From Diplonema papillatum (Eukaryota > Euglenozoa > Diplonemea > Diplonemida > Diplonemidae), in the NCBI GenBank assembly GCA_030068145.1, contig JAPJBO010000485.1, positions 105,895 through 169,894 of the forward strand: a DNA stretch of 64,000 nucleotides, written 5' to 3'. The position numbers were made by a program, and so were the translations under genes. Below the pieces are notes generated by a model. The model did not search any database. It worked only from the letters and a program-made list of their open reading frames with translations, and was not told the DNA's origin. Shown in pieces: positions 10,691-63,099 of the stretch. How positions within the stretch are numbered: position 1 is the stretch's first letter; each line of letters begins with the position of its first letter.

Positions 10691-11230
10691 TTGAAAATGG
10701 GGTAGACGGTTTTTTTTTTTTGGCCCATGTCCGATCGGCCCCAGAAATTTACGCGCGCGCGCGCAAAAAAAAAACTTTTCAGAAAAAAAAAACTTTTGCA
10801 GCAAAACTTTCTGCATACCCATGGGTTACATTATGCTCTACTGGCCGGCCCGTCTTGACTCTTTCGTGCCTGTTGTTGGCTCCTCCCCCCTTCCCGCTGC
10901 AGGGAGCGTTGTGTGGCAGCTGCCGTCTTAGCGTAAAATTCTCACGTTTGCAAGGAGAACGGTGTGAAGAGGACATGGTTCTACCTGAATCAATGCAATG
11001 GAAATGATGCGTGCACAAGGTTGTTCGAAGGCCGTCGTCGTGATCGAAATGCGCGGAAAAGAGGCGCCGACACAGGGGAAACAGCGCACTGAAGAGCGGA
11101 AGCAAACCTAAGAATACGGAAGAGCGTGACCATCAGGCACACGCTAGACCGGAAAGGATGAAATTTTGTGCTCCGTGTGAAAGCTAGTATACTAGACCAC
11201 GAAGTAGATCAGATCATCATGGCAGATGGA

Positions 11231-14200
11231 TCACTGTTTTCTTCGTTTTTTGCATGGAGAAGTATGGGCTGTGGAACTGCTGGACGATGAGTCGGATGAT
11301 GAGTCGGATGATGAGCTTGAACTGTCCGAAGGGGGTCCCTTTTTTGCTTTGGCCTTAAGTGAAACGCTCCTAGGCATCGCGCGGGGCGCGTTTCGAACAA
11401 AGCCTTCCGTAGGCGAAGGCTGCAGAAGAGCAGACGATGCCACCGAAGAAGATACTTGGGTTTGAACTTGAGATCGCGGTTCGCTGGGTACGCCGCGAAC
11501 GAGAAAGAAGTGACCCAGAGGACTGTCAATTGTGCGGGTGTCCGGAATACAAATAACCACCTGAACCTGGGCACCGCTGCGCTTCCTAAGGACTTTGCCG
11601 ACCGAGTGCTCTGTGGCGCACAATACACCGCTAGAGTGCGCAAAACAGGACACCTCAAAATTTGTGAGGGGGAGCGGATCCTTCGTGGCGAACGCGTTCG
11701 TGCAAGCTTGCCATCTCGTTTCCGACATGCCCCATTGCGATGCCACGGTCCTACCGAACCACCGTGCCAGAACCTCCATGGGCGGCTGATCAGTGGCATT
11801 TCCCCCCGCGAGATGAAGCGCCAAGTACCCGCAGATGGTATGGTGCACTTGATTGTCAGATAATACCGAACCGTCTTCTTTCATACCTTGTGCAAGAATG
11901 GCAGCTCTCGCGGTTTCTTTGTTGGCCCGCAAGTATGACCAGCAAAAGTCAAAAAAGGCGAACGTTGACACCGTCACTTCGGGTGCAGTGGCTTTGTCAC
12001 TGTTTACTGAGTAGACAAAGATGCCCTGCTTGGCATCAACTGTCGGCACTCTGCCGACTCTCCTGTCAGCAAGCTTCAGCCAGTGGTCACCTTCTCGCGC
12101 GTAGCAAACGGCGCCGGACTCAAACGACAGCCAGGTTTGTAGGACAAGATGAACATCTCCCACATCGAAAGAGACCGGTGCTGCTGTTTCGTTACCCGCA
12201 TCCGCTACCATGGCCCAAACAGTAGGTGCTTCCAGCACACGGCAATTGGCTAGACGCTGCGCAACGAACGCAGATATGTCCAGGGATGTGCGGTCTAGAA
12301 ATGTCATGCGACGAGTGCTGTTTTCCGTCGCCAATACACCGCGGAACAAGGCATTGTCGCCGATCAAGTGCACTATGTTCGCAAGTACCGTGAACGCATC
12401 GCTTGCCCCGCGTCCTTTTAATGCCTCCTCGAAGTCGGCATGTCGGGCCATGCTCTGGAGAACAGGGCGTGCGTTCGGTGCTGTCCCATCTCTTCTGTCT
12501 AGCCTCGTCAGATACGTCCCTAGCTGCTTCAGGCAGGCGTCGGAAGACATAGACGCGTGCACTGCCTCGCGGACTGGTCCTGTGTGATAAACACACTGCA
12601 CCACGGCGGCAAAAAAACCCGACTTGTCGGTCGCTGCTAAAACCGCGCACGGTTTTGAGGCTTCCTGCTGGGTCGGCTCCGGCTGTGCTTGCGGTAATGA
12701 AGCAGCAGGGGCCGGAGCATTGTTTCGGTTTGTCTGCGAGAGCGGCACCTGGCGCTTCATCTTAACTGCTGGTGCACGGCCTTTCGCGCTACAGCCTGCG
12801 CACACGCGCTGAACGCTCCGGAATTGATCCCGAAGCTCTGCTGCTTCTTCCAGAGCTTGCGTCGACCCGCAGTGGCAACACATATCCGGAAGCCTCTTCT
12901 CTTTTCTGTAGGTGCAGACGTTCCACTCCACGATCCCTAGGCAGCTTGTGCTTCTGCGAACCCAATAGTCGTTTGCCAACGCAGCATCTTCTGGCCATGC
13001 TTCGCCACACGTGTAGCCATCGCCTTCCTGCAAGCTTTCTAAGACTTCTTGCGATGCCTTCTTGCCCAGTCGGCTGTAAATAGCCCGCGGCTTGGAACAC
13101 AGACCACAATTCACGTGTCCAACAATCCGTTTCGTGCAAATCCAGCCCTTCTTGTCTCCGTCGAGTTTAGAACGCGCGTGGAGGGAAGGGCGGTGGATAT
13201 CCTGCTGTTCGTCATTGTGCAGGGCTTCAGAAAAAGGCATGAACGTCTCGGTGTCAGGGGATAGCTGGGGGTAGGGGACGAACGGAGCTGTGCGCAGTGC
13301 CGGTTCGGTCCACGAACAGCAGTTCGGGTCTGAGCAGGGTCTCATCTGGAGCATGTATGGGGAATCCCGAACGTGGCGCTTCCAAAAGCTAGACAGCTGC
13401 TCGTGCGCTTCGGCCTGGTCGCGCTGCACATCTAGACCGATATCGAACTCCCTTTTCAGCCAAGTCTTAACTTCGCCCATCTCTTCCGCACAGTTTCCTT
13501 TCAGCACACGAACGCTCTTGCCGCTGTAAACACCCTTGGACAACCGACTTTCAATAGCAGCCAGGGGAAGACTCGCCCGCACTGCAGCTGCTACGTGGGA
13601 ATCGTTAGTTAGCTTTCGCAATTCGCTGAGAGTGTTCGCTGCTACAACCTTTCGTTCAATATCAGCCTCCTGAAGCTCTTCACGGCAAAAACTGGTGCCG
13701 TAGAGAGAGTAGTTCAGGCTTGGCATGACGCGCTCGGCCCTCTCGAGGTAGCTCCTGCCGGGGCACGTGCGCATCACGACGCAGATGTCAGCCGAGCTGA
13801 GCCTCCAGGTTGCCAGGAGACACACCCTTACACTCCAGAACGTAAGGTTGTGCTCGGGACCCCCGTCTGTTTCTATTAAAAGGACAGGATGGGAGTTGCC
13901 AGGCTGCCGTAGGAAGTTGAGCGTTTCCGCGGCACACCGCACTGCTGACGACGGTTCCTGTATCTTGTCTTTCACGCGTACATATGCTTGGCCGCGACAG
14001 TGTCCGACACTCTTAGCCTGCTCGGTGTCCCGGGGAACATCCACGTCTAAAAAGACAGTGGGTATCGCACCGAAAACATGAGAGTCGTGATCTAAAGCAG
14101 CTGCTCGAGCGGATGGCAAAACGGGCTGCAGAACCTTTTTTTGGCGAATCAAGGCCGAAACAGGCTGGGCAGGACCCCCGATGGGCACAATTGCTTTGTC

Positions 14201-15451
14201 GTCTTGGGCAAGCATGCGCACAACGTTGCCGAACTTGCCGGTCACGTAGACACAGTAGTCTTGGATGTAGATCTGCTGAAAACGGCAGTACACAGCGTCA
14301 ACATGTGCTTTGCGCTCTGTTCGGGCTTGTGTGGCATAGACTAAGGGAAAACGTCGTGTTGATCGCTCGGCAACTCTCTTCCACGCTGCGCCTGGCCAGA
14401 ACTGGTATCTGACCCACGTGTAAGATGGCACGAGCACGTCTTCGCCAACTCGCTCATTCACAGCGTCCATCAATGCTCGGATACTCGCTGGTGCTTCTAA
14501 TGTAGGTCGCAGAACTGTTCCGTGGCGTCTCTCGTCCACTGCCAGCCCGCACTCCTGCAGGAAACTGTGCATCGCTTCCCAATATGCATCAAACGAAGAA
14601 ATGCTGCACAACGAATCCGAGCTGGATGGATACACAATTTCGGCGAATTCTTCAGCCGTGAAGTCAGAAGCGGCGAGTTGCGCCAAGTTTCTTTCCTTCT
14701 CTGTCTGTGGCGCACTCGCAGAGTCGACGGCGAACATGTACATGACGTTCAGAACAACACGGGCAACCCCGCATGCCTTCCACTTTTCAACAAAGTTGCG
14801 CCGCATCGCGCGAGTGTGGAAGGTTTTCCCTGCGCCTATACAGCTCTTGAAAGCCGCTGCGATGGCTTGATCAGACCGAAGATCGCCGGGCGGCAACTTG
14901 AAAGCCATGTATTCAGCACGCACGTTGCCGCCGGCACAGTACCTGTGCAGCCCGAATGCTGACTGCGATCTCAGCTTCAGTATGAAGTCCGCACGCTGTC
15001 TGCGATCCTCAGGTAAGCCGCCAACATCATCAAACGAAAAAGGCTTGTAGGCTTCGGCAGTCTGGAACTTGGCTTCCAGCTGGGGCCAGGTCGCTTGGGC
15101 GCTGGCCTGCACGATCTGCTGCTCCCAATCACGAACTGGGTCGCGCGCTGGTGTGTCACTGGAGCGCTGTGACGTTCTTGTCGTGTTGTAGCTCTGCTGG
15201 TACACGATTCGGGCTTGGACAGCCGACAACAATTCTTGCAGTTGCACGCGTAAGGGGTGGTCTGCGTACTTAGGATGCGCAAACCACGACAACTGCAGAA
15301 GCTGTACGAGCACGTCTTCTTGTTCCCTGAAGTGCGCAATGGTGAACTGTGGTTGATCCTGAACCCTTCGATGCAGATAGGCCTTGTTGTATCCTTTGTA
15401 TTTGACGAGCAGGGCCGCCTGAAGCTGTGCGCCTTCGAGGTTCACTAACAC
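11231..15451 (-). CDS. DDE-type transposase-like protein with C-terminal papain-like domain
   Basis: The frame is 1406 codons long from a GTG. It stays open to about 15556 without an ATG, so the true start or an upstream exon is unknown. Residues about 465-585 hold FLDVDV (D469), then TDGGPEHNLTF (D529), then RTCPGRSY and ERVMPSLN. This series resembles DDE/RNase-H-fold transposases; catalytic roles are inferred. Residues about 740-890 are rich in CxxC and CxC pairs (CSDPNCC, CGLCSKPR, CCHCG, CAGC), suggesting zinc binding. Residues about 1165-1320 form a domain shared with the protein at 59774-62599: FAFFDFCWSYL, SDNQVHHTICGY (Q1201, C1207), PLTNFEV, GHFF (H1314). A serine-rich tail ends in CKKRRKQ, a possible nuclear signal. 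The length is large for a transposase. It is the autonomous ORF of the surrounding TIR element. Confidence 0.7.
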   Translation of the reverse strand: MLVNLEGAQLQAALLVKYKGYNKAYLHRRVQDQPQFTIAHFREQEDVLVQLLQLSWFAHPKYADHPLRVQLQELLSAVQARIVYQQSYNTTRTSQRSSDTPARDPVRDWEQQIVQASAQATWPQLEAKFQTAEAYKPFSFDDVGGLPEDRRQRADFILKLRSQSAFGLHRYCAGGNVRAEYMAFKLPPGDLRSDQAIAAAFKSCIGAGKTFHTRAMRRNFVEKWKACGVARVVLNVMYMFAVDSASAPQTEKERNLAQLAASDFTAEEFAEIVYPSSSDSLCSISSFDAYWEAMHSFLQECGLAVDERRHGTVLRPTLEAPASIRALMDAVNERVGEDVLVPSYTWVRYQFWPGAAWKRVAERSTRRFPLVYATQARTERKAHVDAVYCRFQQIYIQDYCVYVTGKFGNVVRMLAQDDKAIVPIGGPAQPVSALIRQKKVLQPVLPSARAAALDHDSHVFGAIPTVFLDVDVPRDTEQAKSVGHCRGQAYVRVKDKIQEPSSAVRCAAETLNFLRQPGNSHPVLLIETDGGPEHNLTFWSVRVCLLATWRLSSADICVVMRTCPGRSYLERAERVMPSLNYSLYGTSFCREELQEADIERKVVAANTLSELRKLTNDSHVAAAVRASLPLAAIESRLSKGVYSGKSVRVLKGNCAEEMGEVKTWLKREFDIGLDVQRDQAEAHEQLSSFWKRHVRDSPYMLQMRPCSDPNCCSWTEPALRTAPFVPYPQLSPDTETFMPFSEALHNDEQQDIHRPSLHARSKLDGDKKGWICTKRIVGHVNCGLCSKPRAIYSRLGKKASQEVLESLQEGDGYTCGEAWPEDAALANDYWVRRSTSCLGIVEWNVCTYRKEKRLPDMCCHCGSTQALEEAAELRDQFRSVQRVCAGCSAKGRAPAVKMKRQVPLSQTNRNNAPAPAASLPQAQPEPTQQEASKPCAVLAATDKSGFFAAVVQCVYHTGPVREAVHASMSSDACLKQLGTYLTRLDRRDGTAPNARPVLQSMARHADFEEALKGRGASDAFTVLANIVHLIGDNALFRGVLATENSTRRMTFLDRTSLDISAFVAQRLANCRVLEAPTVWAMVADAGNETAAPVSFDVGDVHLVLQTWLSFESGAVCYAREGDHWLKLADRRVGRVPTVDAKQGIFVYSVNSDKATAPEVTVSTFAFFDFCWSYLRANKETARAAILAQGMKEDGSVLSDNQVHHTICGYLALHLAGGNATDQPPMEVLARWFGRTVASQWGMSETRWQACTNAFATKDPLPLTNFEVSCFAHSSGVLCATEHSVGKVLRKRSGAQVQVVICIPDTRTIDSPLGHFFLVRGVPSEPRSQVQTQVSSSVASSALLQPSPTEGFVRNAPRAMPRSVSLKAKAKKGPPSDSSSSSSDSSSDSSSSSSTAHTSPCKKRRKQ

Positions 15452-15523
15452 CCTGCTCGTGCGTGTGAAGAACTCGATGCCCCGGTCCTCTTCGGAGGGA
15501 TAGAAGACAAGAGGAAAATCCGT

Positions 15524-16380
15524 GTCCCAGAGGACTGTCGATTGCGCGGGTGTCCGTCAATCTCTTATCTCTCTTCTGACATGCCCCATTGCGATGTCAC
15601 GGTCCTACCGAACCACCGTGCGAGAGCCTACTGACGGCTGGTCGGTGGCATTTCCATCGGCGAGAATAAGCGCCAGCTACCCGCAGATAGTATGGTGAAC
15701 TTCAACTTCTGCTTTCCTCCACCTTGTGCAAGGATGGTTGCTCTCGCGGCTTCTGCGGCGGTCTGCTGTTGAAACCCCCAAAGGCGGACGTCGACACCGT
15801 CACTTCGGGTGTAGTGGCTTTGTCAATATTACCCGAGTACACAAAGATGCCCTGCTTGGTGTAAACGGAGTTTGTCGGTACTCTGCCGACCCTCCTGTCA
15901 GCAAGCTTTAGCCAGTGGCCACCTTCTGATGCGTAGCAAACGGCGCCGGACTCACAAGATGTACCTCACCCACATCGAAAGAGACCATTGATGTCTCGAC
16001 ATCCGCACGGAGGGCAGGTGCTTCTAGCACACGGCAATTGGTTAGACGCCGTGTGCAACGAAGGCAGTTATGCTCAGGGATGTGCGGTCTAGACTGTCAG
16101 GCGACGAGTGCCGTTTTCTTCGCAAATATACCGCGGCACAAGGCATTGCCGCCGGTCAAGTGCACTAAGTCGCAAGCACCGTGAACGCATCGCTTGCCCC
16201 GCGTCCTTTTCATGCCTCCTCAGTCGAGTCTCAGATACTAGTAGCTGCTTGAGGCGTCGGAAGGCATAGACGCGTGCACTGCCCCGGACTGGTTCTGTGT
16301 GATAATCGCACCACAGTGGCAAAACCTCCCGACATGCCTTGCCGGTAAAACCGCGCACACTTTCGAGGCTGAGGGTGTGC
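15524..16380 (-). pseudogene. decayed copy of the transposase C-terminal region
   Basis: The DNA matches about 11515-12650 in the same orientation, with many small deletions and stops. The reverse-strand peptide near 15520-15560 reads TDTRAIDSPLGHGF, against PDTRTIDSPLGHFF in the intact protein. The copied region includes the papain-like domain. The copy abuts the 5' end of the 1406-codon ORF, the junction falling in the shared word 'cccagaggactgtc'. Further upstream (16430-16660, - strand) lies possible N-terminal coding remnant. This suggests an unequal exchange or nested insertion between two copies of the element. Confidence 0.75.
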
Positions 16381-16813
16381 TTGTATCCCGCGTGCTTCGA
16401 CTGCGTCCAGCAGCAGCTACGCAAATCTTGCTGTTTAGATTGACACCAACGTCAAAGTAGCACGATATTGCTTGCCCAGCGCACCAACCCAGCACCGGGC
16501 ATAGTCAGCTTCAAAGTCAATACACACTGAGGTAAACAAAGTCTACGCGATTTGCATCGCCGTGAAGTATCGGTGTGATGAACAGGGTTTCGACTTTTCG
16601 CGAGCCGGACACGCTCGTGACTACGCCTGCAGTCGCTCTCACGACCGGTTCCAATGCACAGATCCCAAAAGTTTTTTTTTGGCAAAAGTTTTTTTTTTCC
16701 GGGGGTTCCCAAAAATTTACGCGCGCGCGGACATGGGCCAAAAAAAAAAAACCGCCTACCCTTACTAAAAAGTTGCTGAGTACATTTTCAGGGCAAAAAA
16801 CAAATTTGTTAGG

Positions 16814-24941: not shown

Positions 24942-26660
24942 AACTCCACACCAGGTAGGGGAGCCAGGGAATGGCGTCGCCAGCATCCTCGGAGCGCTGG
25001 CCGACGAGAGGGACCGGCTGCACTTTTACTCTGAAACCTCGAAACAGTCTGGAATCAAGCTAGAGCAGTAACCCACGGATCTCCTGCGCAGCATTCCCCC
25101 ATCCACCTCCACACCAGGTAAGGGATTGGACTGACGTCCCAAGGGAATGGCGTCGGACCTCGCTGCACTTTTACTCTGAAACCTCGAAGCAGTCTGGAAA
25201 CAAGCTAGAAGAGTAAACCCACGAGTCTCCTGCATCCACCTCCGCACCAGGTAAGGGATTGGACTGACGGCCCAAGGGAATGGCGTCGGACCTCGCTGCA
25301 CTTTTACTCTGAAACCTCGAAGCAGTCTGGAAACAAGCTAGAAGAGTAAACCCACGAGTCTCCTGCCATTCCCATCCACCTCCGCACCAGGTAAGGGATT
25401 GGACTGACGGCCCAAGGGAATGGCGTCGGACCTCGCTGCACTTTTACTCTGAAACCTCGAAGCAGTCTGGAAACAAGCTAGAAGAGTAAACCCACGAGTC
25501 TCCTGCCATTCCCATCCACCTCCGCACCAGGTAAGGGATTGGACTGACGGCCCAAGGGAATGGCGTCGGACCTCGCTGCACTTTTACTCTGAAACCTCGA
25601 AGCAGTCTGGAAACAAGCTAGAAGAGTAAACCCACGAGTCTCCTGCCATTCCCATCCACCTCCACACCAGGTAGGGGAGTGGGCTGGCGGCCCAAGGGAA
25701 TGGCGTCGGACCTCGCTGCACTTTTACTCTGAAACCTCGAAGCAGTCTGGAAACAAGCTAGAAGAGTAAACCCACGAGTCTCCTGCCATTCCCATCCACC
25801 TCCACACCAGGTAGGGGAGTGGGCTGGCGGCCCAAGGGAATGGCGTCGGACCTCGCTGCACTTTTACTCTGAAACATCGAAGCAGTCTGGAAACAAGCTA
25901 GAAGAGTAAACCCACGAGTCTCCTGCCATTCCCATCCACCTCCGCACCAGGTAAGGGATTGGACTGACGGCCCAAGGGAATGGCGTCGGACCTCGCTGCA
26001 CTTTTACTCTGAAACCTCGAAGCAGTCTGGAAACAAGCTAGAAGAGTAAACCCACGAGTCTCCTGCCATTCCCATCCACCTCCGCACCAGGTAAGGGATT
26101 GGACTGACGGCCCAAGGGAATGGCGTCGGACCTCGCTGCACTTTTACTGAAACCTCGAAGCAGTCTGGAAACAAGCTAGAAGAGTAAACCCACGAGTCTC
26201 CTGCCATTCCCATCCACCTCCACACCAGGTAGGGGAGTGGGCTGGCGGCCCAAGGGAATGGCGTCGGACCTCGCTGCACTTTTACTCTGAAACATCGAAG
26301 CAGTCTAGAAGAGTAAACCCACGAGTCTCCTGCCATTCCCATCCACCTCCACACCAGGTAGGGGAGTGGGCTGGCGGCCCAAGGGAATGGCGTCGGACCT
26401 CGCTGCACTTTTACTCTGAAACCTCGAAGCAGGCTGGAAACAAGCTAGAAGAGTAAACCCACGAGTCTCCTGCCATTCCCATCCACCTCCACACCAGGTA
26501 GGGGAGTGGGCTGGCGGCCCAAGGGAATGGCGTCGGACCTCGCTGCACTTTTACTCTGAAACCTCGAAGCAGTCTGGAAACAAGCTAGAAGAGTAAACCC
26601 CCGAGTCTCCTGCCATTCCCATCCACCTCCACACCAGGTAGGGGAGTGGGCTGGCGACCC
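24942..26660 (+). repeat. 140-bp tandem array derived from the RAD51C 5' end
   Basis: Eleven units (ATG-bearing word at 25141, 25274, 25414, 25554, 25694, 25834, 25974, 26114, 26252, 26381 and 26521) mostly repeat every 140 bp. Each contains aagggaATGGCGTCGGACC, identical to the RAD51C start at 26667, then joins a unique sequence after CTCGC|TGCAC. A first, longer unit at about 24971 retains about 18 RAD51C codons with small deletions. Each unit also carries a donor-like CCAGGTAAGG or CCAGGTAGGG. Two flavours alternate: gtaagggattggactgacgg and gtaggggagtgggctggcgg. In most units the ATG opens a ten-codon frame, MASDLAALLL then stop; the unit at 26114 lacks 2 bp and runs longer. Confidence 0.9.
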
Positions 26661-26666
26661 AAGGGA

Positions 26667-28239
<1,573 letters not shown>

Positions 28240-29606
28240 GCCTGCGACGTGTGTTGGATTGTGTTCCCTCCCGTCCAACCTCGTAACGAGTGGATGTTGG
28301 CGGTGCAACACCTGTTCAACTTCGACCGCCTTCCGGATGAGCCGCCGAGATGGCCGTACGGCGGCCGTGCGATGCGGGCGCTCAAGGGCTGGCTGTCGGC
28401 ACTGAGGTGGACGGACGCAGGCGAGGTGCCGTGCGTCGAGCTGGCAGTGGACTTCGAGGTCCACACCGGGGTCGACGTCCCTGCCCCCGGGGATACGAAG
28501 GCTCGCCGCCAACCAGAGGGGGAAGACCCTCTGGACGATGCTGTTGACATTGTGCCGCCTGTGCCGAGAGCTGCCGTCGCCGTTGCCTGCCGAGCGGAAG
28601 GTCTGGGTGGGCTCGATGAGGACCTGGGGGCGCCGATGCTGTGGGGGGGATTGACACCTCGCCCACGCTTCGCCGGGGGCGAGGAGACGCACGGGGTGCT
28701 GGAGACGAGCTTTCCGCGGGCAGCTGCCGGGGACGGGAAGAACTGGGGCGGCGACGTGTTCCCGCAGTACGACGCGGCGCGGCGGGCACAGCGTTCGCTG
28801 CGCTGGGACGAGCCCACCCCTCTGCCGCAACGCCCGCGCCTTCCCGTGCTTGTACCGGCTGCGCAGGCGGACCCTCTGCTCCGCGTGGTGCTGGCCGCGA
28901 CAGCAGCAGTGGCGACGGGGGTGGCGGTGGTCATGGCGGCCGCGGCCGCGGCCGCGGCCGCGGCGGCCGGGGCGGCGAAGACAACAGTGGCGGAGACGGT
29001 GGCGGCGGCCGCGGCACTGGTCGCGGCAGCGTTCGCGGCAGCGTTCGCGGCAGCGTTCGCGGCGGGGAACGCGGCGGCGGCGGAGGCGGTCGCAGCCTTG
29101 GCGAGAGCGACAGCCTCACAGGCCGGAAGCGGCGCGCGACGTCCCACCTGGGACACCTGCCAGCCGTGGCCGGAGGAGGCGGACGACGAAGTCGCCCCCG
29201 AAGCGCCCCCCCGCCAGCAGGCCGGAAGCGTCCCGCGCCATGCACCCCCACGGCCTCTCCCGCAGCCGCGCTGCGCGCACGACGACGACGACGACGCGCC
29301 GATCTCGGCGACGACGGCACTGGCCCCGCCCGGCCCTCTTCGATGGCAGGCCCTGACTCGGGCCCTTTTTCTGATTCTGGTTCCGACCCTCCACGGGTCA
29401 CACAACGATCGCGCCCTCCCGCCGGCTCTTCCCGGCTACTCGCGTCCTCCGCATCGCGGCGTGCCTATCGGCGCAAACGAGAAAGCGAAGATTCCGAATC
29501 CTTTTCGGATTATGAAATCGTCAGTAACTTCCAAGAACAGTTGCAACCGACTAGAGTTGCGCCGCGCCGAAAGCGCGGAAAAAGTGACCCTTCTGGCGTC
29601 ACGTAG
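28240..29606 (+). pseudogene. unrecognised ORF in RAD51C intron 1, RGG-rich C-terminus
   Basis: Two overlapping + frames look coding by composition. The first (28250 to about 28930) includes NEWMLAVQHLFNFDRLPDEP and CVELAVDFEVHTGV. The second (about 28880-29606) is an RG/RGG-rich stretch followed by a basic, serine-rich tail (RKRESEDSESFSDYE) and a stop at 29604. Joining them needs a frameshift near 28880-28930. I do not recognise the family. The location in an intron, the frameshift and the dispersed word ccactaacgcaacaa 45 bp after the stop suggest the 3' coding part of a retroelement. No reverse transcriptase motif is visible, so this is weak. Confidence 0.4.
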
Positions 29607-29650
29607 CGAAAAGCTGGCATAGTGTGGTACTCATTTGCTTGCAAATGACT

Positions 29651-29665
29651 CCCCACTAACGCAAC
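29651..29665 (-). repeat. dispersed terminal motif, inverted copy
   Basis: The reverse complement of ttgttgcgttagtgg. Together with the adjacent atttgcaagcaaatgac, it parallels 21018-21045, marking the likely end of a dispersed element. Confidence 0.7.
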
Positions 29666-29759
29666 AAGACGACGAGTGGATGTGAAAAACTGGGGATGCA
29701 TTGCCTATCCACAGAACGTAGTGGATCCCACTAGACGCGCCTTCGGCGCTCAAGCAAGC

Positions 29760-30045
<286 letters not shown>

Positions 30046-30979
30046 GAGGCTGTCAGCTTCTCCATCCCGCACTCGGCTCAAGACTTCTGTTTTCATCTTG
30101 CGGCGTCAGCTGCACGGGGTTTTCGGCCCCGTGCAACAGCTGTGTGTCTTTACACGGCGGCACATCTCACCCGAGGATGTGGCAAGCTCTCTCTGTGCAA
30201 TGAGCTTGGCCTGATACCTTGAACGTATGGAAACGGAAACAGAAACATCTCTTTTGTCCAGACTTCCAGGTGCCCCATTGCAGCAGCCGTTTCCTTACTA
30301 AGTGTTGCCTTGAACGTATGGAAACGGAAACGGACGCATCTTTTTAGCTGTGGGCATCCAGGTGCAGCCCAGGGCCTGGCCACAGCCCCAAACTGACGTG
30401 GGGCGCGTCCGACCACCATCCACCCACACCACCTAGGAGTTTCTGCTCTTCGTATTGTCTGACGATGCCTAGAAGAAAGGGAAAAGTAAGAACACGTCTA
30501 ACGCAAAGGGAATGTTGCGTGACTGCCTTAACCCGGGGAAACGAGCTTGGGCGAGGTCACCGGAGAGTTAGGGAGGGTGGGAAAACTTGAATTTTTCTTT
30601 GAACCAACCTGAAGGCTGTGTGAAGTTCTCTAATCGACTTTCGTGGTGGATCAACTCCCTCAGTGAAACTGTGACAAGGATGAATACCAGCTCGTGGTGC
30701 TCAGATCCCAGCATGGATACCCCCATCGTGCCAACCATCCATATCACCTAGTACACATGGATGGTAGGGGCATCCTACGTCGCACCACCACGTAGCCCTA
30801 CATGTCTACAGACTACGTATGAGTTAGGTAATCATTGAGTTCTGTAAAGTGCAAGTGCCGTGAAGGCAAGCGATGTTCACGGGCTAGTGTTACTTTATGA
30901 CGTCGTTCGTTGGGAAAGTCAATCAACGATGATGAGGATGCGGTCAACCTGGCAAAGGTAAGCAAACACAAACACGCAG
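30046..30979. other. end of RAD51C intron 1
   Basis: Contains a local duplication (ccttgaacgtatggaaacgg at about 30218 and 30309) and otherwise nothing recognisable. The 3' splice site is aaacacgcag, ending at 30979. Confidence 0.5.
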
Positions 30980-31510
30980 GCGGCACCGGGAGCGGCAAAA
31001 CTCAGCTCGTTCTGCAAGCCGCGCTCGACGTGCAGATCCCGCCTTCGTTCGGCGGCCTGGGCGGGTCCGCCGTCGTCGTCGACACCGACGGCAGCGTCAC
31101 CGGGAAGCGGCTGCACGAGATGGCCCAGCACCTCCTCCACCACCTCCGGGCGCATCAAAGGGCGAACCCGGCGCTTGCGCGCGACCTGGCCGGCATGTCT
31201 GCAGCAGGCCTCGTCGCGGACATCCACGTTATCCGCGTCTTCACCTTGCAGGAGCTCCTCGCCCTGGTCACGGCTCTCCCCGGGCTCTTGCTGGACCACG
31301 CCCGTCGGACCGACCCGAGCGCAGCCGGCGGCGGGCAGCCCGCGGCGTTGCTGCTTGGCCTGCCCGCCCCCCCCCTCGCGCTGCGCCTGGCGCCGTCCAA
31401 ACCGGTGCGCCTCGTGGCCATCGACTCCATCGCGAGCCCGTTCCGTGCCGCGGCGCTGCTGGCGACGAAAGACGCGTCCGTCAAGCGGCAGCAGCAGCTG
31501 TCCCTCCTGG
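30980..31510 (+). CDS. RAD51C: RAD51C homologue, exon 2 (Walker A and B)
   Basis: This exon encodes the ATPase core. The split codon restores G124, so Walker A reads GGTGSGKT (124-131). VQIPPSFGG matches VQIPECFGG of animal RAD51C. Walker B is VRLVAIDSIASPFR, with D272. Between them lies an insertion rich in Ala, Pro and Leu (about GGGQPAALLLGLPAPP) that lengthens the protein relative to animal orthologues. The exon ends after SLL plus one base (phase 1) before GTGTGC at 31511. Exon 3 begins with the matching phase to give RQQQLSLLGQRLRKIADRF, as expected for a RAD51 paralogue. Confidence 0.9.
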
Positions 31511-31541
31511 GTGTGCACCGCCGCTTACTATATATAATAAT

Positions 31542-32947
31542 ATATATACCGTACTTGGAAAAAAGACGTACCGGAACAATTATGTACCGGAAATAAGACG
31601 TACCGGAAAAAAGATGTACCCGCGGGCCTCAGGGAAAAACTTTGTGACTTTTTCCGCTTGGTTGGGTTCTGCTGGAATTTGTCATAGAGGGTGCTTGCTC
31701 AACTGCCTTTCCTGCAACAGCCACATCCAGGATCAAATCAAGACGCAACAATACAATATGCTGCGTGTTTTTTCGCGATTCCGCTGCTGCCCCAATCCTG
31801 CCAGCTCAGCAGATCGTGCTGGCTGAACAGGTCACGGCAGATGAAGCTGTGGCAGATGCCTCCCGCGCAGGAACAACACGAGGTCTCCACAAGACTAACA
31901 AACCGTGGGCCGGCTCGTAGCTCCGCATGGACTCACCAATGCAGTGCTCACCAATGCAGTGTCGTTGTGGATATAGTGTGGGCTGCACCGACCTCCGCCA
32001 TCAATTCCTTTGTTGGGGAGATTTTCTCGCTGGTCCACGTAGCAGACCGTTTTCGTCGAATTTATGATCACGTTCTGCCCCGATGAAGAGATTCGTGGAA
32101 AATGGACCAGGAAACAAATAGTATGTGCGTGGTTTGTGGGTCTTTCCAATGTTCAGGGCAGCGGGTATGGAATTTACACCGCGGATTGGCAAGACTTTGC
32201 ACCGTAGATTCACGCCAAAAAGGTCAAAGCTACCAGCGCAATTATGTTGCCACGTCGGGGGTGAAACCCCCGGAACTCGGGGAATTGATGATGTCACCTG
32301 ACAGGCAGTGTAACAAGAAAATCCGAAATGGATTTTGATTTCCACGATCACCATTCCACATGGATCCACATCTCGAACTCTGGCGGGACGAACCACGTAC
32401 ATATATTTTGGTCCCCGGGTCTATTTTCCGCAGATCTCTTCATCGGAGCTGCCTCGAGCAACATATCGTCGAAAAAGGTCTGCAACGTGGACCAGCGAGA
32501 AACAGTCCAAAAAACGACAACTCAGTGCATCGAACCAGCGCACCGCACCACCGGCCCGCCGCCCACACTGCCAAAAAACCCCCAACAAAATGATGTGTGC
32601 ACGAGGGAGCCATGTTCGACGGGTCACAGGCAAAACGGTTGGACCGCGCCCAGTAATAAATTCGATACTCGTCGTGTTCTCTTGTGCTGATGCGGATTGC
32701 CAGAGCGCCACGGCTGCACGGCGGGTGGCCGGCGTATCTAGAGAAGTTTAAGCGAGGCTCCGAAAGAGGAAGCGGAGAGGGCGTACGCAGTCGAACGCCA
32801 GTGGTAGGGGAAAATAGCCCCTCCGAGATTATTCAGAATTATTATATACCGGAAATAAGACGTACCGGAAAAAAGATGTACCCGCGGGCTCTGGGGGAAA
32901 GTTTTGTGACTTTTTCCGGTACGTCTTTTTTACAAATACGGTATATC
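31542..32947. mobile_element. non-autonomous TIR element, ~1.4 kb
   Basis: The left end reads taccgtacttgg then aaaaaagacgtaccgga. The right end is its near-perfect reverse complement, ending tttacaaatacggtat. Both ends also carry ataagacgtaccgg and 'atgtacccgcggg' words. The flanks are TA-rich, so a TA target duplication is possible. The interior (about 31990-32150 and 32360-32520) contains an inverted internal duplication, giving a fold-back structure. No transposase is visible. A taccgtattt terminus recalls pogo/Tc1-mariner-like MITEs of other eukaryotes; this is inference. It lies in RAD51C intron 2. Confidence 0.65.
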
Positions 32948-33937: not shown

Positions 33938-36900
33938 CAGAATTTGACGGAAAACCACTGTTACATCGATGTAATGGGCAGAATTTGACGGAAAACCACT
34001 GTTACATCAATGTAATGGCCCAAATCTGACCGAAAACCACTGTTACATCAATGTAATGGGCCAAATTTGACCGAAAACCACTGTTACATCGATGTAATGG
34101 GCAGAATTTGACGGAAAATCACTGTTACATCGATGTAATGGGCAGAATTTGACGGAAAACCACTGTTACATCAATGTAATGGCCCAAATTGACCGAAAAC
34201 CACTGTTACATCGATGTAATGGGCAGAATTTGACGGAAAACCACTGTTACATCAATGTAATGGCCCAAATCTGACCGAAAACCACTGTTACATCAATGTA
34301 ATGGGCCAAATTTGACCGAAAACCACTGTTACATCGATGTAATGGGCAAATTTGACGGAAAACCACTGTTACATCGATGTAATGGGCAGAATTTGACGGA
34401 AAACCACTGTTACATCAATGTAATGGCCCAAATCTGACCGAAAACCACTGTTACATCAATGTAATGGGCCAAATTTGACCGAAAACCACTGTTACATCAA
34501 TGTAATGGCCCAAATCTGACGGAAAACCACTGTTACATCAATGTAATGGCCCAAATTTGACGGAAAACCACTGTACATCCATGTAATGGCAAATTTGACG
34601 GAAAACCACTGTTACATCGATGTAATGGCCCAAATCTGACGGAAAACCACTGTTACATCAATGTAATGGCCCAAATCTGACCGAAAACCACTGTTACATC
34701 AATGTAATGGGCCAAATTTGACCGAAAACCACTGTTACATCGATGTAATGGGCAGAATTTGACGGAAAACCACTGTTACATCAATGTAATGGCCCAAATC
34801 TGACCGAAAACCACTGTTACATCAATGTAATGGGCCAAATTTGACCGAAAACCACTGTTACATCGATGTAATGGGCCAAATTTGACCGAAAACCACTGTT
34901 ACATCGATGTAATGGGCAGAATTTGACGGAAAACCACTGTTACATCGATGTAATGGGCAGAATCTGACCGAAAACCACTGTTACATCAATGTAATGGGCC
35001 AAATTTGACCGAAAACCACTGTTACATCGATGTAATGGGCAGAATTTGACGGAAAACCACTGTTACATCAATGTAATGGGCAGAATTTGACCGAAAACCA
35101 CTGTTACATCAATGTAATGGCCAAATCTGACGGAAAACCACTGTTACATCGATGTAATGGGCAGAATTTGACGGAAAACCACTGTTACATCAATGTAATG
35201 GCCCAAATTTGACCGAAAACCACTGTTACATCAATGTAATGGCCAAATTTGACGGAAAACCACTGTTACATCGATGTAATGGGCAGAATTTGACGGAAAA
35301 CCACTGTTACATCGATGTAATGGGCAGAATTTGACGGAAAACCACTGTTACATCAATGTAATGGCCCAAATCTGACCGAAAACCACTGTTACATCAATGT
35401 AATGGGCCAAATTTGACCGAAAACCACTGTTACATCGATGTAATGGGCAGAATTTGACGGAAAACCACTGTTACATCAATGTAATGGCCCAAATCTGACC
35501 GAAAACCACTGTTACATCAATGTAATGGGCCAAATTTGACCGAAAACCACTGTTACATCGATGTAATGGGCAGAATTTGACGGAAAACCACTGTTACATC
35601 GATGTAATGGGCAGAATTTGACGGAAAACCACTGTTACATCAATGTAATGGCCCAAATCTGACCGAAAACCACTGTTACATCAATGTAATGGGCCAAATT
35701 TGACCGAAAACCACTGTTACATCGATGTAATGGGCAGAATTTGACGGAAAATCACTGTTACATCGATGTAATGGGCAGAATTTGACGGAAAACCACTGTT
35801 ACATCAATGTAATGGCCCAAATCTGACCGAAAACCACTGTTACATCGATGTAATGGGCAAATTTGACGGAAAACCACTGTTACATCAATGTAATGGGCCA
35901 AATTTGACCGAAAACCACTGTTACATCGATGTAATGGGCAGAATTTGACGGAAAATCACTGTTACATCGATGTAATGGGCACGGAAAACCACTGTTACAT
36001 CAATGTAATGGCCCAAATCTGACCGAAAACCACTGTTACATCAATGTAATGGGCCAAATTTGACCGAAAACCACTGTTACATCGATGTAATGGGCAGAAT
36101 TTGACGGAAAACCACTGTTACATCAATGTAATGGGCCGAATTTGACCGAAAACCACTGTTACATCAATGTAATGGCCCAAATTTGACGGAAAACCACTGT
36201 TACATCGATGTAATGGCCCAAATCTGACCGAAAACCACTGTTACATCAATGTAATGGGCAGAATTTGACGGAAAACCACTGTTACATCAATGTAATGGCC
36301 CAAATTTGACCGAAAACCACTGTTACATCAATGTAATGGCCCAAATTTGACCGAAAACCACTGTTACATCGATGTAATGGGCAGAATTTGACGGAAAATC
36401 ACTGTTACATCGATGTAATGGGCAGAATTTGACGGAAAACCACTGTTACATCAATGTAATGGCCCAAATCTGACCGAAAACCACTGTTACATCAATGTAA
36501 TGGGCCAAATTTGACCGAAAACCACTGTTACATCGATGTAATGGGCAGAATTTGACGGAAAACCACTGTTACATCAATGTAATGGCCCAAATCTGACCGA
36601 AAACCACTGTTACATCAATGTAATGGGCCAAATTTGACCGAAAACCACTGTTACATCGATGTAATGGGCAGAATTTGACGGAAAACCACTGTTACATCGA
36701 TGTAATGGGCAGAATTTGACGGAAAACCACTGTTACATCAATGTAATGGCCCAAATCTGACCGAAAACCACTGTTACATCAATGTAATGGGCCAAATTTG
36801 ACCGAAAACCACTGTTACATCAATGTAATGGCCAGAATTTGACGGAAAACCACTGTTACATCGATGTAATGGGCAGAATTTGACGGAAAACCACTGTTAC

Positions 36901-37704
36901 ATCAATGTAATGGCCCAAATCTGACGGAAAACCACTGTTACATCAATGTAATGGGCCAAATTTGACCGAAAACCACTGTTACATCGATGTAATGGGCAGA
37001 ATTTGACGGAAAACCACTGTTACATCAATGTAATGGCCCAAATTTGACGGAAAACCACTGTTACATCGATGTAATGGCCCAAATCTGACCGAAAACCACT
37101 GTTACATCAATGTAATGGGCCAAATTTGACGGAAAACCACTGTTACATCAATGTAATGGCCCAAATTTGACCGAAAACCACTGTTACATCAATGTAATGG
37201 CCCAAATTTGACGGAAAACCACTGTTACATCGATGTAATGGGCAGAATTTGACGGAAAACCACTGTTACATCGATGTAATGGGCAGAATTTGACGGAAAA
37301 CCACTGTTACATCAATGTAATGGCCCAAATCTGACGGAAAACCACTGTTACATCGATGTAATGGCCCAAATCTGACGGAAAACCACTGTTACATCAATGT
37401 AATGGGCCAAATTTGACGGAAAACCACTGTTACATCAATGTAATGGCCCAAATTTGACCGAAAACCACTGTTACATCAATGTAATGGCCCAAATCTGACC
37501 GAAAACCACTGTTACATCAATGTAATGGGCCAAATTTGACCGAAAACCACTGTTACATCAATGTAATGGCCCAAATTTGACCGAAAACCACTGTTACATC
37601 AATGTAATGGCCCAAATTTGACGGAAAACCACTGTTACATCGATGTAATGGGCAGAATTTGACAGAAAACCACTGTTACATCAATGTAATGGCCCAAATC
37701 TGAC
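33938..37704. repeat. 41-bp satellite array, about 92 units
   Basis: A continuous tandem array of gaatttgacgg, then aaaaccactgttacatcga, then tgtaatgggca. Each unit holds the 14-bp palindrome TTACATCGATGTAA or its CAATG variant. Units fall into types (gcagaatttgacgg, gcccaaatctgaccg, gggccaaatttgaccg) that often recur in the same order of three, a higher-order repeat of about 123 bp. Rare indels occur (about 34195, 34575, 35980). The array lies wholly within RAD51C intron 2 and has no open frames. Confidence 0.97.
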
Positions 37705-41332: not shown

Positions 41333-41567
41333 CATTGTCGACGACGGTTAACGAAGGAGATGAGCACTATTGCCGTGCCAGTGCAGTGAAGGAGGTGTGA
41401 ACCCGCTAGGTTCCCTTTCTTTTTCGTAATTCGCACCTGGCGGCAACCCGTAACTAACTCTAACAACCCTTTTCGTAAAAAGACGCAGACAGCGTGTTTT
41501 TAGGCAATCAGAACTCCTCACCTGAAAATGAAAACCGGATCCATGCACGCGGATAACCGATCAACCG

Positions 41568-42126
41568 GCAAACATACAATCCACTTAGGTGCTTTGTTCA
41601 AGAACGAAAGAAAGCGCACACCTTTTTTTGTTCCATCTTCGACGTTGCCGAGTCGTCATGGTGGGCACGCTCCCTATATTCGCTGATGCGGCTGGACGTG
41701 TCGTACCCGGACTCCACCGCGGTCACTGCCGAGGAAGTGGGGCTGCTGGCGTCGCTGTTCGTCGGTGCAGCCCTCGCAGTCGGGCTTTGCTAGACGAGCT
41801 TGCGGTCGCTGGTGTTCAAGGGGAACCTGGCGGCCGTCGTGCTGATCGCCGCCGCCGGCTTCTGGGGGAAGGTGCAGGTGCTGACGAACTTCGGGGCGTA
41901 CGACCTGGCCCCGAGAGTGACCGAAACGGTCCCGGATGTGCACGATGCGACCCACGCCACGTTCCGAACCGACTACTTTGGCCTCCCGGTGGTGGGACGC
42001 GCCATCATACCGCTCTGCCAAACCAGTTGAAGGAGGTAAACCCATTTGGCAGGAACACCTGTTTTGGACATTGTCGCGTCTTAAAGAGAAGCTAACGGGG
42101 TAAATACAAGTGGGAACCCGATAAAC
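41568..42126 (+). pseudogene. truncated JmjC 5' copy 1
   Basis: The block repeats the leader (ccacttaggtgctttg) and first ~130 codons of the JmjC gene at 43426. The start ATG is lost (gttccatcttcgacg), TGG has become TAG after GLC, and the JmjC domain is absent. It ends in the shared tail ccagttgaaggagg. Confidence 0.85.
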
Positions 42127-43340: not shown

Positions 43341-43425
43341 TACAAGTGGGAACCCGATCAACCAACCCACTTAGGTGCTTTGTTCAAGAACGAAAGGAAG
43401 CGCACACCTTTTTTTGTTGGGCGGA

Positions 43426-44670: not shown

Positions 44671-48050
<3,380 letters not shown>

Positions 48051-49711: not shown

Positions 49712-49819
49712 TCGGTTGTGGCTACTGCTGTTGTTACGCTTCCTCCGTTATGCAAGCAAAGACTCCTGAACATGTGTCGTCGCACCCGTCGCATGCCCTA
49801 CTGAATGTCCGGGGGTTAA

Positions 49820-51292
<1,473 letters not shown>

Positions 51293-51469
51293 TTCCGAAG
51301 CTCACCTTTTGTTTTCATTCTTTTTTTCTTCTTTTTCTTCCAGCAAAAGCAAGGCACAACTGCTTCTGCTTTCGGGCGTCTGCCGTGTGTTCCAGCTCGT
51401 TGCTGACTAGCCAGCGGTGGTGCGCATGAGCAAATTACCCAGATGAGTAGGCAGACGACCTCTTTTGCA

Positions 51470-51950: not shown

Positions 51951-51954
51951 TCAT

Positions 51955-52245: not shown

Positions 52246-56324
<4,079 letters not shown>

Positions 56325-58441: not shown

Positions 58442-59551
58442 GTTGACACAGCATTGCGTCTGTGACATGGCCGCCCGCGATGAGTATGATGACTCACGAC
58501 ACACACAGCGGTGCCAAAACATTCACATGGGAAGACACGTTCGAGGGGAGTCCCGGAGTCCACCATTCCTTGTAGGGGGACGTCCTTGTCGGTACCGGGG
58601 GACAAACTGGTAAACTTCGCGGCGGAACGTCGAAGCGACTCGCTTCGTGAACTGCGCGTTGAGCTCTCCGTGCACACCCGCTGGAATGAAGATTTCAGGC
58701 TTCGCGGTGGATTTCGCCACGTCCCATGGTCGTCTGGTTCTCGTAGGGGCTTGTCCTGCTCTTTGCGGTCCCTTGCACTTCTGTCATGTTCAGCCTATGG
58801 GCTTCGATATCGTATATCTTGTCGGTTTGACAGCAAGTGGATTTGCAAATGACACATAGGCGATTGTGAAGGTGGCCGAGATGGGGGTAACGATGAGCGG
58901 TTTGCCACCAAAAATTTCCGTATGGTCCAAAACGCAAGAAGAAGCTTTGCCAAGAAGCGTTGGATAAAGAGCACGGGAAGCCCGACTTTTTTGTAGCCTT
59001 CAATGGGAAAGGTTTGGGAGGAGATCAAAAAAAAGCCTGCGACCCAAAAATCGGTGGACCGACCTGATCTAGTTACCCGTGTCAAGGCTTCGATCACGGG
59101 TGTGGCTGAAACGAGCCATTGCCCAGCGCCCGTGGTTAGAGTTGAGGGACTTGGGGGTGCATTGCCGAGCTTGCTGTGAGATGGACGCGCGTCAAGGCCG
59201 AAGCTCAGTCCTCCCAGGGGGGGGGGGGGGGGGGAGGGGGGGGGGGCAGTGCTGATACTAAGCCTGAGACCCAAAACGAAGTTGCTAACCCTGGGTGGGG
59301 GTGGGTACCCCCCCCCCTACCCCCCCCCCCCCCCTCCTGGTGCAACCCACTGTGGACCTACTGTGGGACCCACCTTAGCTGAATTCTCTAAGGTGAAATG
59401 GTGGAAAAAGTGGGTCAAAATTCTTTTTTTTCGAGTGCTTTTTTGGGAGGATTTGGGCCAAAAAAAAATTTTTTTTTCTTGGTCGCTGCTGAGGAAACCA
59501 CCTTAGAGCGGTCACCACCCTGCTGCACACAGGCCCTGCAGGAGGGGGGGG
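58442..59551. other. no gene recognised; G and C homopolymers
   Basis: Contains G-runs at 59217-59246 and C-runs at 59309-59334. Short open segments (58647-58859, 58960-59170) look protein-like but have no family motif. Confidence 0.4.
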
Positions 59552-62500
59552 CAAGGGTACCTGTAACTCCAGGGTCTCCAGGGCCCGGGCCCCGGGCCCC
59601 GGGCCCCGGGTTAGCGCTAGGGTCCAGATAGGGTCCAGGCCCACGGTGCTCACGCCATCCAAGGGTGGAATCTTCCGTATTGCAGATTCCCACAACAAGC
59701 GGAGAGAAAAACGAGAAGAAAACACGAAATAAACTTGATAAATCTTGATAAAAACGCACACAGTCAGGTGCTATCAGCCAATTTTCCTTCGCTTGGGAAT
59801 AGGCCCCGTCGGTTTGTCCTCTTCTTCCTCCTCTTCGTCTTCTTCGTCTTCTTCATCTTCTTCGTCATCTTCTTCTTCTTCTTCTTCTTCTTCTTCTTCG
59901 TCTTCGTCTTCGTCTTCCTCTTCCCCATTCTCATTCTCATCCGTATCACCTTCTTCCTCTTCCTCCTGGTCATCTGAATCTGCAACCTCTTTTGCTACCC
60001 CTCTGGCAGCTGTCATCTTCTTCTCCAGCACTTCGAACACGGACACACCTTTTTTGGTGCTTGTGTCTCGCTTCCTCAATAAGCGGCGGGTTTTGAGCGA
60101 CAGCCAGATGGTGGAACAGAGGGTAATGAAACCCTCTGCGGCGTCCACCCTCGGGCCCATGTCCCGTATCATAAGTTCCGCTGAGAGGGTTTTCACGTCG
60201 ACCTGCGTGCGCTTCAGGGTGGCGTAGCGCAGCCGGGCATACAGCCTTTCAGCCTTGTTGGAGCTACAAGAACTGAAAATGAGGGCGTACTCCAGTGCCT
60301 TGCGAACCCGGCCCTTCACCTTGTCCAGCACCACAAACCAACCGCCCCACCCCATCCCCAGCTTTCTCACCTCTGTCTTGGCGATTAGCCACTGTTCTTT
60401 CGTGAACTCTGCCGATTCCTTTTCAAGGCCCGCCTCCTGCATCCCCAGTGTTTCCATCACCACCTCGAGGTCATCGTCGGCGTATTCGGCGAGATCCTCG
60501 TCAGACAGGCACGTTATCTTGTACACGTTCATCATGCGCAGGAGAGCTGTCTCCACAGCACCGTAGTGGCGAAGGTTTGCCAAGCACTCAATGGCCAGAT
60601 CGGTAGCGCGGCGCCGCATGCTTCCCGGTACCTGCTTGTTTTGCAGCTCTTCTAGTTCGGTGATTGCTTCGCCCACCGAAAAGTCGAAATGCAACAAAAT
60701 TGCATGTTCCCCCTGTGCGACGAGGCTCGGTTTCTGGGCAATTGAAAACAACTCGCCAAAGAACAAGAGGTCTCCGGGGACGTCATCTGCTTGGACCAAC
60801 TTTTTCAGCTTTTGACGGGTCTTAGGCACGGAGTCTTGCGTTGATTCGTTGCTGTCTACTGCCTTCTTGTCAGCACGCACCTTCTTCCACGAAGATCCTG
60901 TCTCGATATGTGATTTCCACATCATCCACATCCTTGCAGCACGTACCAGCGACGTCCGCACCTTCGCCTGCCAGCGGATGCGATAAGAGAGGGAAGGGCG
61001 CAGCACAAGTTTCCTCTGTTTGCCGACGGTGGTGAACTTGGATTTGCTGTCTGTTTCAAGCTCGCGGAACAGCACTTTCGACTGCAGATAAACACGGTCG
61101 ATGGAGCGAATCCCCTGGATGAGGGTGGCCAGCGCGGGGATCTTACTAACCGGCTTCAGCGCGTTCTGCAAGCGGTGTGCTTGGTCGGGGAAGTGTGGCT
61201 GCAATGTGCGGGTCCTGAGATGCATTCTTCCGACAAGCCCACGAGTTTTGCCCGTGATCGTCCCGCAGCTGTCCGCGATGACCCCGCCAACACGCTCTTC
61301 AGGGAGATCGACAGTGAGGAGCATTGCTTTCATCTGCTCGTGCAGTGCATCACCGTCTGCCGACACCAACACATTGTCCGTCATCCTGACGAACCGTTCG
61401 ACACAGCGGAGGGTGGCTTTGGGGGACGGGCGATGGAGGTACCGCAAGAGGAACACATTCACGTCTTGGTTGACATTCCTCAGGGAGGTTCCGTCTGTCA
61501 CCATCCCGATGGAACTCACGCTCTTGAGCTCCTTCTTCACGCGTTCTTGCAGAGCACCGGCCCACACGTGCACCATCTCTCCAACATGCCTGGCGCACGC
61601 ATATTTCTTGGGTATGCTCCCGCGAAGTCCTGCTATCGTAGCTGCAACCGTCGTGTGTTCCGTCCCGTGCATGATACCTGCGTACATCACGCAATGCAGG
61701 CGCGAGAAGAGGTCGACCTTCTCTTTCGGTGGCGGGACGATCTTCGGAGGCGGAGTTGCGGCGTTGGAGGTGGCGGCGGCAACAGCAGCCTGGTGGAAAC
61801 CCGAACTTGACAGATGTTTGTTCTGGGCTCTGCGGATGTTGTTGTTGTCGGCAACACGGTACTCAATCCAGGTGTTTTTTGATGCTTGGGCGTGTTTGCG
61901 CTTCACACCTGTCGTCACTGCTTTCGCGCACGCCTTGCAGCCCCAACCTGTGGCCTTCTTCTCGAATAGCGCCTTCGGATCTTCAGGAGTGGCTTTCGGC
62001 TGAGGGGCGTTTACCTCACTACCCTGGCACGTAAACGTGATGCGCCCATCCTTTGCACCCAACATCACCATCTGTCGGCCATGCTCCGGATTGCGGATGA
62101 CGATAATGCAGAAGAAGTGCCCCATCTTTTGCATGCCGATTGGGGGGAGAAAGACGATGTACACCCCTTCGCAGAGAGACGTGCGTTGGAACTCCGGCGG
62201 AGTAACCAACCGAACGAGCGATGAGAGAGTGTCGCAGCAGAACCGGTTCACTTCGAGGTTGGTCAGCGGAGGGGGGCTCTCGGAACGACGAAGGCACATG
62301 TGGATGTTCAACCAGCGGTAGTCTTTCATTCCGAAGTTCTCGGCGTCGGTGGTAACCCAGAAGGCGGCGATGTCTTTAAGGGTAGGGCAAACCACCAGCC
62401 GCGCTTTCTCCCGAACCCACTTGGCAGCCACCATGAGGGATATGTACCCGCAGGTCGTCGCCATACCTTGCTCATCAGACACCACGTACCGCGTGTCGTC

Positions 62501-63044
62501 CTTCTTCGCGGTTCTGGAGGCATGTCTCTCACATGCCAGCTTCCTTGTTGTCAAGTACGACCAAGCAAAATCGAGCACGAAAAACGCAAACGCAGACATT
62601 GTTATTGGGATTTACTTAAAATGTTTGTATACTCCTGCGGGTTTGGGACGTCTTTAACTGACGGTGTCCAATCCGTAATGGAACCGGCCGAAAGAGCCAG
62701 ATTTGATTCGTTTTTGATTGTTCGTTTCCTCAGACAGCTGTTCTTCAGTAGTAGTAGTAGTAGTTTGAACTTTATATGCAGTAACAATCTGTGGTAATGA
62801 AGTGCACAAGCCGCTACCGACTACCTCTTGGCGCGTCGCGCCGTGCTTGGGTTGTTAAAAAAATAATCCAAGGACGTTTTTGAACGCTTTGGAATCCGTT
62901 GAGCTCAAGGACAGTCTGGGGCCCTGGAATGGAATAGTAAACGAATTGCATCTTGTACCAGAGAGTCTTTCCTTTGGTAATCGTTCAGGGCCAACAAAAC
63001 TGGAAAATTTCCAGGGCCCGGGCCCCGAGTTACAGGTACCCTTG
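59552..63044 (-). mobile_element. hAT-like transposon unit with 17-bp inverted repeats
   Basis: caagggtacctgtaact (59552-59568) and its perfect reverse complement (63028-63044) flank the 941-codon transposase-like ORF. Just inside both repeats lies a palindromic gggcccgggccc block, and just outside both lies a G-run. True ends and target duplications could not be fixed, because the homopolymers obscure them. Confidence 0.6.
59774..62599 (-). CDS. hAT-like transposase with N-terminal papain-like domain
   Basis: A 941-residue protein from an ATG at 62599. Residues 1-170 match the C-terminal domain of the protein at 11231-15451: FAFF..DFAWSYL, SDEQGMATTCGY (Q44, C50), PPLTNLEV and GHFF (H161). 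A basic, cysteine-containing linker with WGCKACAK follows. Residues about 365-480 resemble the hAT/DUF4371 catalytic fold: MVTDGTSLRN (D369), GGVIADSCGTITG (D443), then AHRLQNALK. A region near 780-815 (CSSNKAERLYARLRYATLK) resembles the hAT dimerisation segment. The C-terminus is a roughly 60-residue Glu/Asp tract ending in PKRRKIG, a likely nuclear signal. The frame is intact, so the element may be recently active. hAT assignment is by motif only. Confidence 0.7.
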   Translation of the reverse strand: MSAFAFFVLDFAWSYLTTRKLACERHASRTAKKDDTRYVVSDEQGMATTCGYISLMVAAKWVREKARLVVCPTLKDIAAFWVTTDAENFGMKDYRWLNIHMCLRRSESPPPLTNLEVNRFCCDTLSSLVRLVTPPEFQRTSLCEGVYIVFLPPIGMQKMGHFFCIIVIRNPEHGRQMVMLGAKDGRITFTCQGSEVNAPQPKATPEDPKALFEKKATGWGCKACAKAVTTGVKRKHAQASKNTWIEYRVADNNNIRRAQNKHLSSSGFHQAAVAAATSNAATPPPKIVPPPKEKVDLFSRLHCVMYAGIMHGTEHTTVAATIAGLRGSIPKKYACARHVGEMVHVWAGALQERVKKELKSVSSIGMVTDGTSLRNVNQDVNVFLLRYLHRPSPKATLRCVERFVRMTDNVLVSADGDALHEQMKAMLLTVDLPEERVGGVIADSCGTITGKTRGLVGRMHLRTRTLQPHFPDQAHRLQNALKPVSKIPALATLIQGIRSIDRVYLQSKVLFRELETDSKSKFTTVGKQRKLVLRPSLSYRIRWQAKVRTSLVRAARMWMMWKSHIETGSSWKKVRADKKAVDSNESTQDSVPKTRQKLKKLVQADDVPGDLLFFGELFSIAQKPSLVAQGEHAILLHFDFSVGEAITELEELQNKQVPGSMRRRATDLAIECLANLRHYGAVETALLRMMNVYKITCLSDEDLAEYADDDLEVVMETLGMQEAGLEKESAEFTKEQWLIAKTEVRKLGMGWGGWFVVLDKVKGRVRKALEYALIFSSCSSNKAERLYARLRYATLKRTQVDVKTLSAELMIRDMGPRVDAAEGFITLCSTIWLSLKTRRLLRKRDTSTKKGVSVFEVLEKKMTAARGVAKEVADSDDQEEEEEGDTDENENGEEEDEDEDEEEEEEEEEEDDEEDEEDEEDEEEEEEDKPTGPIPKRRKIG

Positions 63045-63099
63045 GGGGGGGGGGGGGGGGGGGGGGGGGGGTCGAAAAGGTAGGTTCTTTTTTTGCGGC

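Follow-up and report, generated by a model that had tools for sequence, protein, structure and literature searches.

Cysteine peptidases of the ubiquitin system have already been described for several classes of DNA transposons, namely Ginger1 (OTU, Ulp1), Mutator (Ulp1), Helitron (OTU, VTD), Crypton (C48) and transposase_11 (USP, C19), and the same peptidase type has been published for more than one class (PMC2836005, PMC3212892, PMC9741609). In this study, a 64,000-nucleotide stretch of the genome of the marine protist Diplonema papillatum (contig JAPJBO010000485.1, positions 105,895 to 169,894; termed the window) was analyzed, in which two open reading frames (ORFs) of transposon type, P0001 and P0002, share a module with a suggested papain-like fold. 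A preliminary description of this DNA had regarded such a module as a new accessory strategy of transposons. In view of the published carriers this claim was given up, and the Diplonema module is to be considered a variant of a known theme. What is new is a module with only chance-level matches in Pfam, PHROGs and NCBIfam on a hAT-like transposase: within the open-licence literature, no precedent was found for hAT in combination with cysteine protease, OTU, C48 or deubiquitinating terms, nor for transposons with MINDY, and PMC9741609 was the sole relevant report on DNA transposons with a fused deubiquitinase.

The favored interpretation, to which a probability of about 0.45 is assigned, is that an undescribed papain-like cysteine peptidase module (Q..C..H), most similar to OTU/MINDY deubiquitinases, occurs in at least two kinds of transposon-type protein of D. 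papillatum, one being hAT-like, with the module N-terminal, and the other presumably DDE-type, with the module C-terminal. Similarity between the two module copies is far above chance. BLASTP of P0001 residues 1161-1318 against P0002 residues 1-165 yielded 57 bits (28% identity, E 7e-12). Shuffled sequences (n=1000) reached a raw score of at most 48 as compared to 144 for the module pair, and hhalign of the P0002-family profile against P0001 gave an E-value of 4.1e-11 at 97% probability. ORF coordinates and the identical order of FAFF, SD(N/E)Q, CGY, PLTN and GHFF in both proteins were found as previously described, as were the distances from cysteine to histidine of 107 (C1207-H1314) and 111 residues (C50-H161), respectively; both ORFs are on the minus strand. 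Likewise, the remainder of the two proteins is unlike: the best match outside the module covers 33 residues and is marginal at most (E 0.010 for whole P0001 versus whole P0002; E 0.11 for residues 1-1155 versus 181-860, without the acidic tail). Since the module alignment is strong and similarity elsewhere marginal, the comparison indicates that two proteins with little else in common carry one homologous module, each at the opposite end from the other.

Conservation was assessed on three independent sequences, namely P0001, P0002 and P0004, a relative of P0002 from ENA (922 aa; 10 member sequences in its cluster) that is 44% identical to P0002, module included (43% over 92% of P0002 in a second comparison). 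Glutamine, cysteine and histidine are conserved in this order, which is that of papain-like (clan CA) peptidases, in 3/3 lineages. The spacing Q-x5-C put forward in the preliminary description applies to P0001 and P0002 (5 residues each), whereas P0004 aligns with Q-x4-C, its cysteine-to-histidine distance being 109. Further positions identical in all three sequences include, among others, D42, Q44, C50-G51-Y52, G90-M91, R95-W96, L112-T113-N114, E116-V117 and G160-H161 (P0002 numbering). Moreover, module identity between P0002 and P0004 (41.4%) is inside the range of six other segments of these proteins (38.1–49.0%), and the module, as judged from this alignment, is a standing part of the P0002/P0004 lineage. 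The top database match of P0002 was P0003, annotated as 'hypothetical protein DIPPA_13850 [Diplonema papillatum]' (99% identity, 64% of the query), which looks like a spliced model of the same locus. By this match the window was assigned to D. papillatum, after a dinoflagellate host had been rejected for want of the spliced-leader motif. P0003 is devoid of five module residues, and beyond approximately P0002 residue 598 its C-terminus is different. Because the P0004 alignment continues with P0002 and not with P0003 at both places, the deposited model is probably wrong, and a single uninterrupted P0002 ORF is favored.

In regard to the fold, the structure model of the module is of low confidence, and the model of P0001 residues 905-1340 was too poor for use. 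Nevertheless, the structural search returned papain-fold proteins in 20/20 of the first 20 re-aligned rows, cysteine and histidine are placed at the secondary-structure positions expected for this fold, and the neighbors, though weak, are mostly deubiquitinases including MINDY and OTU. In MINDY enzymes, Q-x5-C is likewise present and the catalytic histidine is part of an HF. Most catalytic residue numbers are presumptive assignments. Together with the residues conserved in three lineages, the consistent neighbors suggest the papain-like fold proposed earlier. For either module piece, Pfam listed no peptidase model at E≤10, be it OTU, MINDY or another, where filters drop most weak matches. P0001 contains no aspartate or asparagine after H1314 until N1354, and its module may therefore be weakly active or dead. 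Other searches provided no family assignment: Foldseek against viral structures gave no significant match, viral contigs (three queries and one pattern) and prokaryotic genome contigs gave no useful match, and solved structures searched by sequence returned nothing or low-complexity and chance matches. Likewise, P0001 residues 900-1340 and 280-1340 had no protein-database match at E≤10 among approximately 8000 candidates scored at 0.55–1.75 of the query length, a range that shorter deposited models could escape. It is conceivable, if doubtful, that the module is not a peptidase at all and represents a DNA-binding, dimerization or degenerate domain, with a structural role for Q, C and H; the uniform papain-fold neighbors and the positions of cysteine and histidine speak against this explanation.

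P0002 is supported as the gene of a hAT-like element bounded by terminal inverted repeats (TIRs). With up to 3 mismatches allowed, CAAGGGTACCTGTAACTC matched twice in the whole window, and 0/100 shuffles reached two matches. The hAT superfamily is characterized by short TIRs with the consensus start YARNG, and the start CAAGG of the P0002 element fits this consensus. By eye, P0002 presents VTDGTS, IADSCGT...G, DxxH and SSCSSNKAER, which we take to be the order of hAT transposases. In contrast, Pfam hAT models matched neither P0002 at E≤1 nor P0004 at E≤10. The element is termed hAT-like instead of being counted as a proven hAT member. Its flanks, A-G8 on the left and G27 on the right, are compatible with a G8 target duplication, but with a homopolymer of 27 G residues on the right this observation is of little informative value. 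The element is inserted at this G run (63045-63071). According to the D. papillatum genome paper, over 60 ORFs are similar to DNA-transposon proteins, with TATE, MULE and Helitron being named; the term 'hAT' is not used anywhere in the main text (PMC10161547).

Table 1. Coordinates of P0001, P0002, their common module and associated repeats within the window.
Feature	Position	Strand	Remarks
P0001	11231..15451	-	1406-aa ORF; presumed DDE-type core and C-terminal module
Common module in P0001	11498..11971	-	residues 1161-1318; Q1201, C1207, H1314
USP-like region of P0001	11972..12664	-	residues 930-1160; by eye, catalytic Cys and His missing
TDGGPEHN...ERAERVM stretch of P0001	13724..13870	-	residues 528-576; with presumed DDE-core D and E
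Decayed second copy of USP-like region and module	15516..16370	-	stops, frameshifts; directly upstream of P0001
Candidate left inverted repeat, P0001 element	10700..10798	+	~80% to right arm
Candidate right inverted repeat, P0001 element	16666..16761	-	may instead be a dispersed repeat
P0002	59774..62599	-	941-aa hAT-like transposase; module N-terminal
Common module in P0002	62072..62599	-	residues 1-176; Q44, C50, H161
hAT-like DNA transposon carrying P0002	59552..63044	-	3493 bp; perfect 18-bp inverted ends, ORF inside
Left TIR CAAGGGTACCTGTAACTC	59552..59569	+	18 bp
Right TIR	63027..63044	-	18 bp, identical to left
Candidate 8-bp target duplication GGGGGGGG, left copy	59544..59551	.	A precedes
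Candidate 8-bp target duplication, right copy	63045..63052	.	inside G run 63045-63071

For P0001, the frame is open from position 15556 and the first methionine is residue 182; therefore, either an exon further upstream or loss of the 5' end has to be assumed. Its TDGGPEHN...ERAERVM stretch presumably resembles a family of uncharacterized eukaryotic proteins, a similarity confirmed by no search. The stretch looks like the D and E of the previously noted DDE-like core, whereas profile, protein-database and solved-structure sequence searches did not recognize a DDE/RNase H core, the last of these returning just enolase and one other chance match. P0001 is presumably a DDE-type protein. Residues 930-1160 (SGFFAAVVQCVYHTGPVREAV; SGAVCYAREGDHWLKLADRRVGRV) resemble, as we assume from inspection by eye and without profile support, a USP domain, in which GFF and GAV are read at the expected positions of the catalytic cysteine and histidine; Pfam and solved-structure sequence searches gave no USP (C19) match for this region. 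The adjoining decayed copy spans approximately residues 916-1316 and has the same His-box residues (GAV).

It is rather unlikely that P0001 is a host gene or a remnant with a module captured from a hAT-like element, the decayed copy then being a local tandem duplication; this explanation concerns P0001 only and is compatible with the other readings. It would account for several features, among them the lack of a convincing target duplication at the arms, the related arm motif also present at 59449, the absence of an ATG ahead of residue 182 and the restriction of the decayed copy to the 3' part, and repeat-bordered genes have been described in the D. papillatum genome (PMC10161547). Opposed to it are the long open frame with the TDGGPEHN...ERAERVM stretch and the inverted arms of approximately 80% identity, which enclose the gene together with the decayed copy.

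Among the described systems, Ginger1 is similar in that an OTU or Ulp1 cysteine peptidase is placed at the end of a transposase (C-terminal in Ginger1), and its peptidase types also occur elsewhere, Ulp1 on Mutator and OTU on Helitron; it differs by its Gypsy-integrase-like core and by peptidases of recognized families, the Diplonema module being without family match (PMC2836005). Moreover, one Diplonema copy is N-terminal on a hAT-like protein. Helentron VTD deubiquitinases likewise represent a papain fold, predicted for the Diplonema module, in a DNA transposon, but reside in rolling-circle elements and possess the Asp-x-His missing here (PMC9741609). A VTD deubiquitinase was ruled out for this reason, the residues up to the conserved histidine being SPLGH (P0001), QKMGH (P0002) and QKHGH (P0004). 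C48 peptidases of oomycete CryptonS and CryptonF also represent one peptidase family in two transposon groups, for which domain shuffling was considered by the authors (PMC3212892). Unlike the Diplonema proteins, both Crypton groups are based on tyrosine recombinases. The residue order of Ulp1/C48 peptidases is H-D-Q-C, in contrast to Q-C-H in the Diplonema module, and an Ulp1/C48 (SUMO) peptidase was ruled out since the sole invariant module histidine comes after the cysteine and no C48 profile matched. Finally, a Trichomonas protein combining transposase_11 and Peptidase C19 is a transposase-USP fusion to which the USP-like region of P0001 is similar by eye (PMC2836005), whereas in P0001 this region is without cysteine and histidine and precedes another module of a different kind.

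Under the favored interpretation of a papain-like peptidase, a ubiquitin-directed mechanism is considered on account of the suggested fold and of what has been proposed in the literature for the OTU/Ulp1 and VTD domains (PMC2836005, PMC9741609). Tethered to the transposase, the module would act on this protein or, where transposition takes place, on host factors including those of repair, and take off ubiquitin or a ubiquitin-like modifier, whereby the transposase would be spared proteasomal turnover or break repair would be steered. If so, hAT would join the DNA-transposon classes with deubiquitinase-type peptidases, through a module for which Pfam gives no detectable match. Were such enzymes acquired repeatedly and independently by unrelated transposons, the benefit of deubiquitination for a transposon would become testable in D. 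papillatum, which is genetically manipulable (PMC12621601). An extended version, considered unlikely, holds that the module constitutes a new papain-like deubiquitinase family confined to the DNA transposons of diplonemids and their relatives. It would have moved between the hAT lineage and another class of transposase, where it was placed beside a dead USP, which would amount to stepwise deubiquitinase replacement inside a transposase. Least probable is a peptidase cutting itself from the transposase end instead of acting on ubiquitin: the terminal position of the module, which starts P0002 and P0004 but is C-terminal in P0001, and the retained Q, C and H in all three lineages would suit it, but no conserved cleavage site was seen by eye, no systematic search having been made, and the structural neighbors are mostly, if weakly, deubiquitinases.

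Further features of the window comprise two alpha/beta-tubulin gene pairs in tandem (46695-56324, plus strand), the copies being 97–99% identical in DNA, with Pfam analysis run for the first pair. A Rad51-like gene appears to be split (26649-31593), its Walker-A part being located at 30901-31593 (PF08423, E 4e-6). What may be the N-terminal part, at 26649-27032 and without Pfam match, abuts a 750-bp GT repeat (27037-27789) that is placed as if starting at the 5' splice site of this gene. Ahead of a cupin/JmjC gene (43375-44667), the 5' part of this gene recurs in several incomplete copies arranged head to tail (88–95% identical; region 41557-44667), a layout resembling the repeat-bordered genes of the D. 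papillatum genome (PMC10161547). In addition, approximately 92 repeats of a 41-bp unit are present at 33941-37704 and approximately 12 repeats of a 140-bp unit at 25017-26683.
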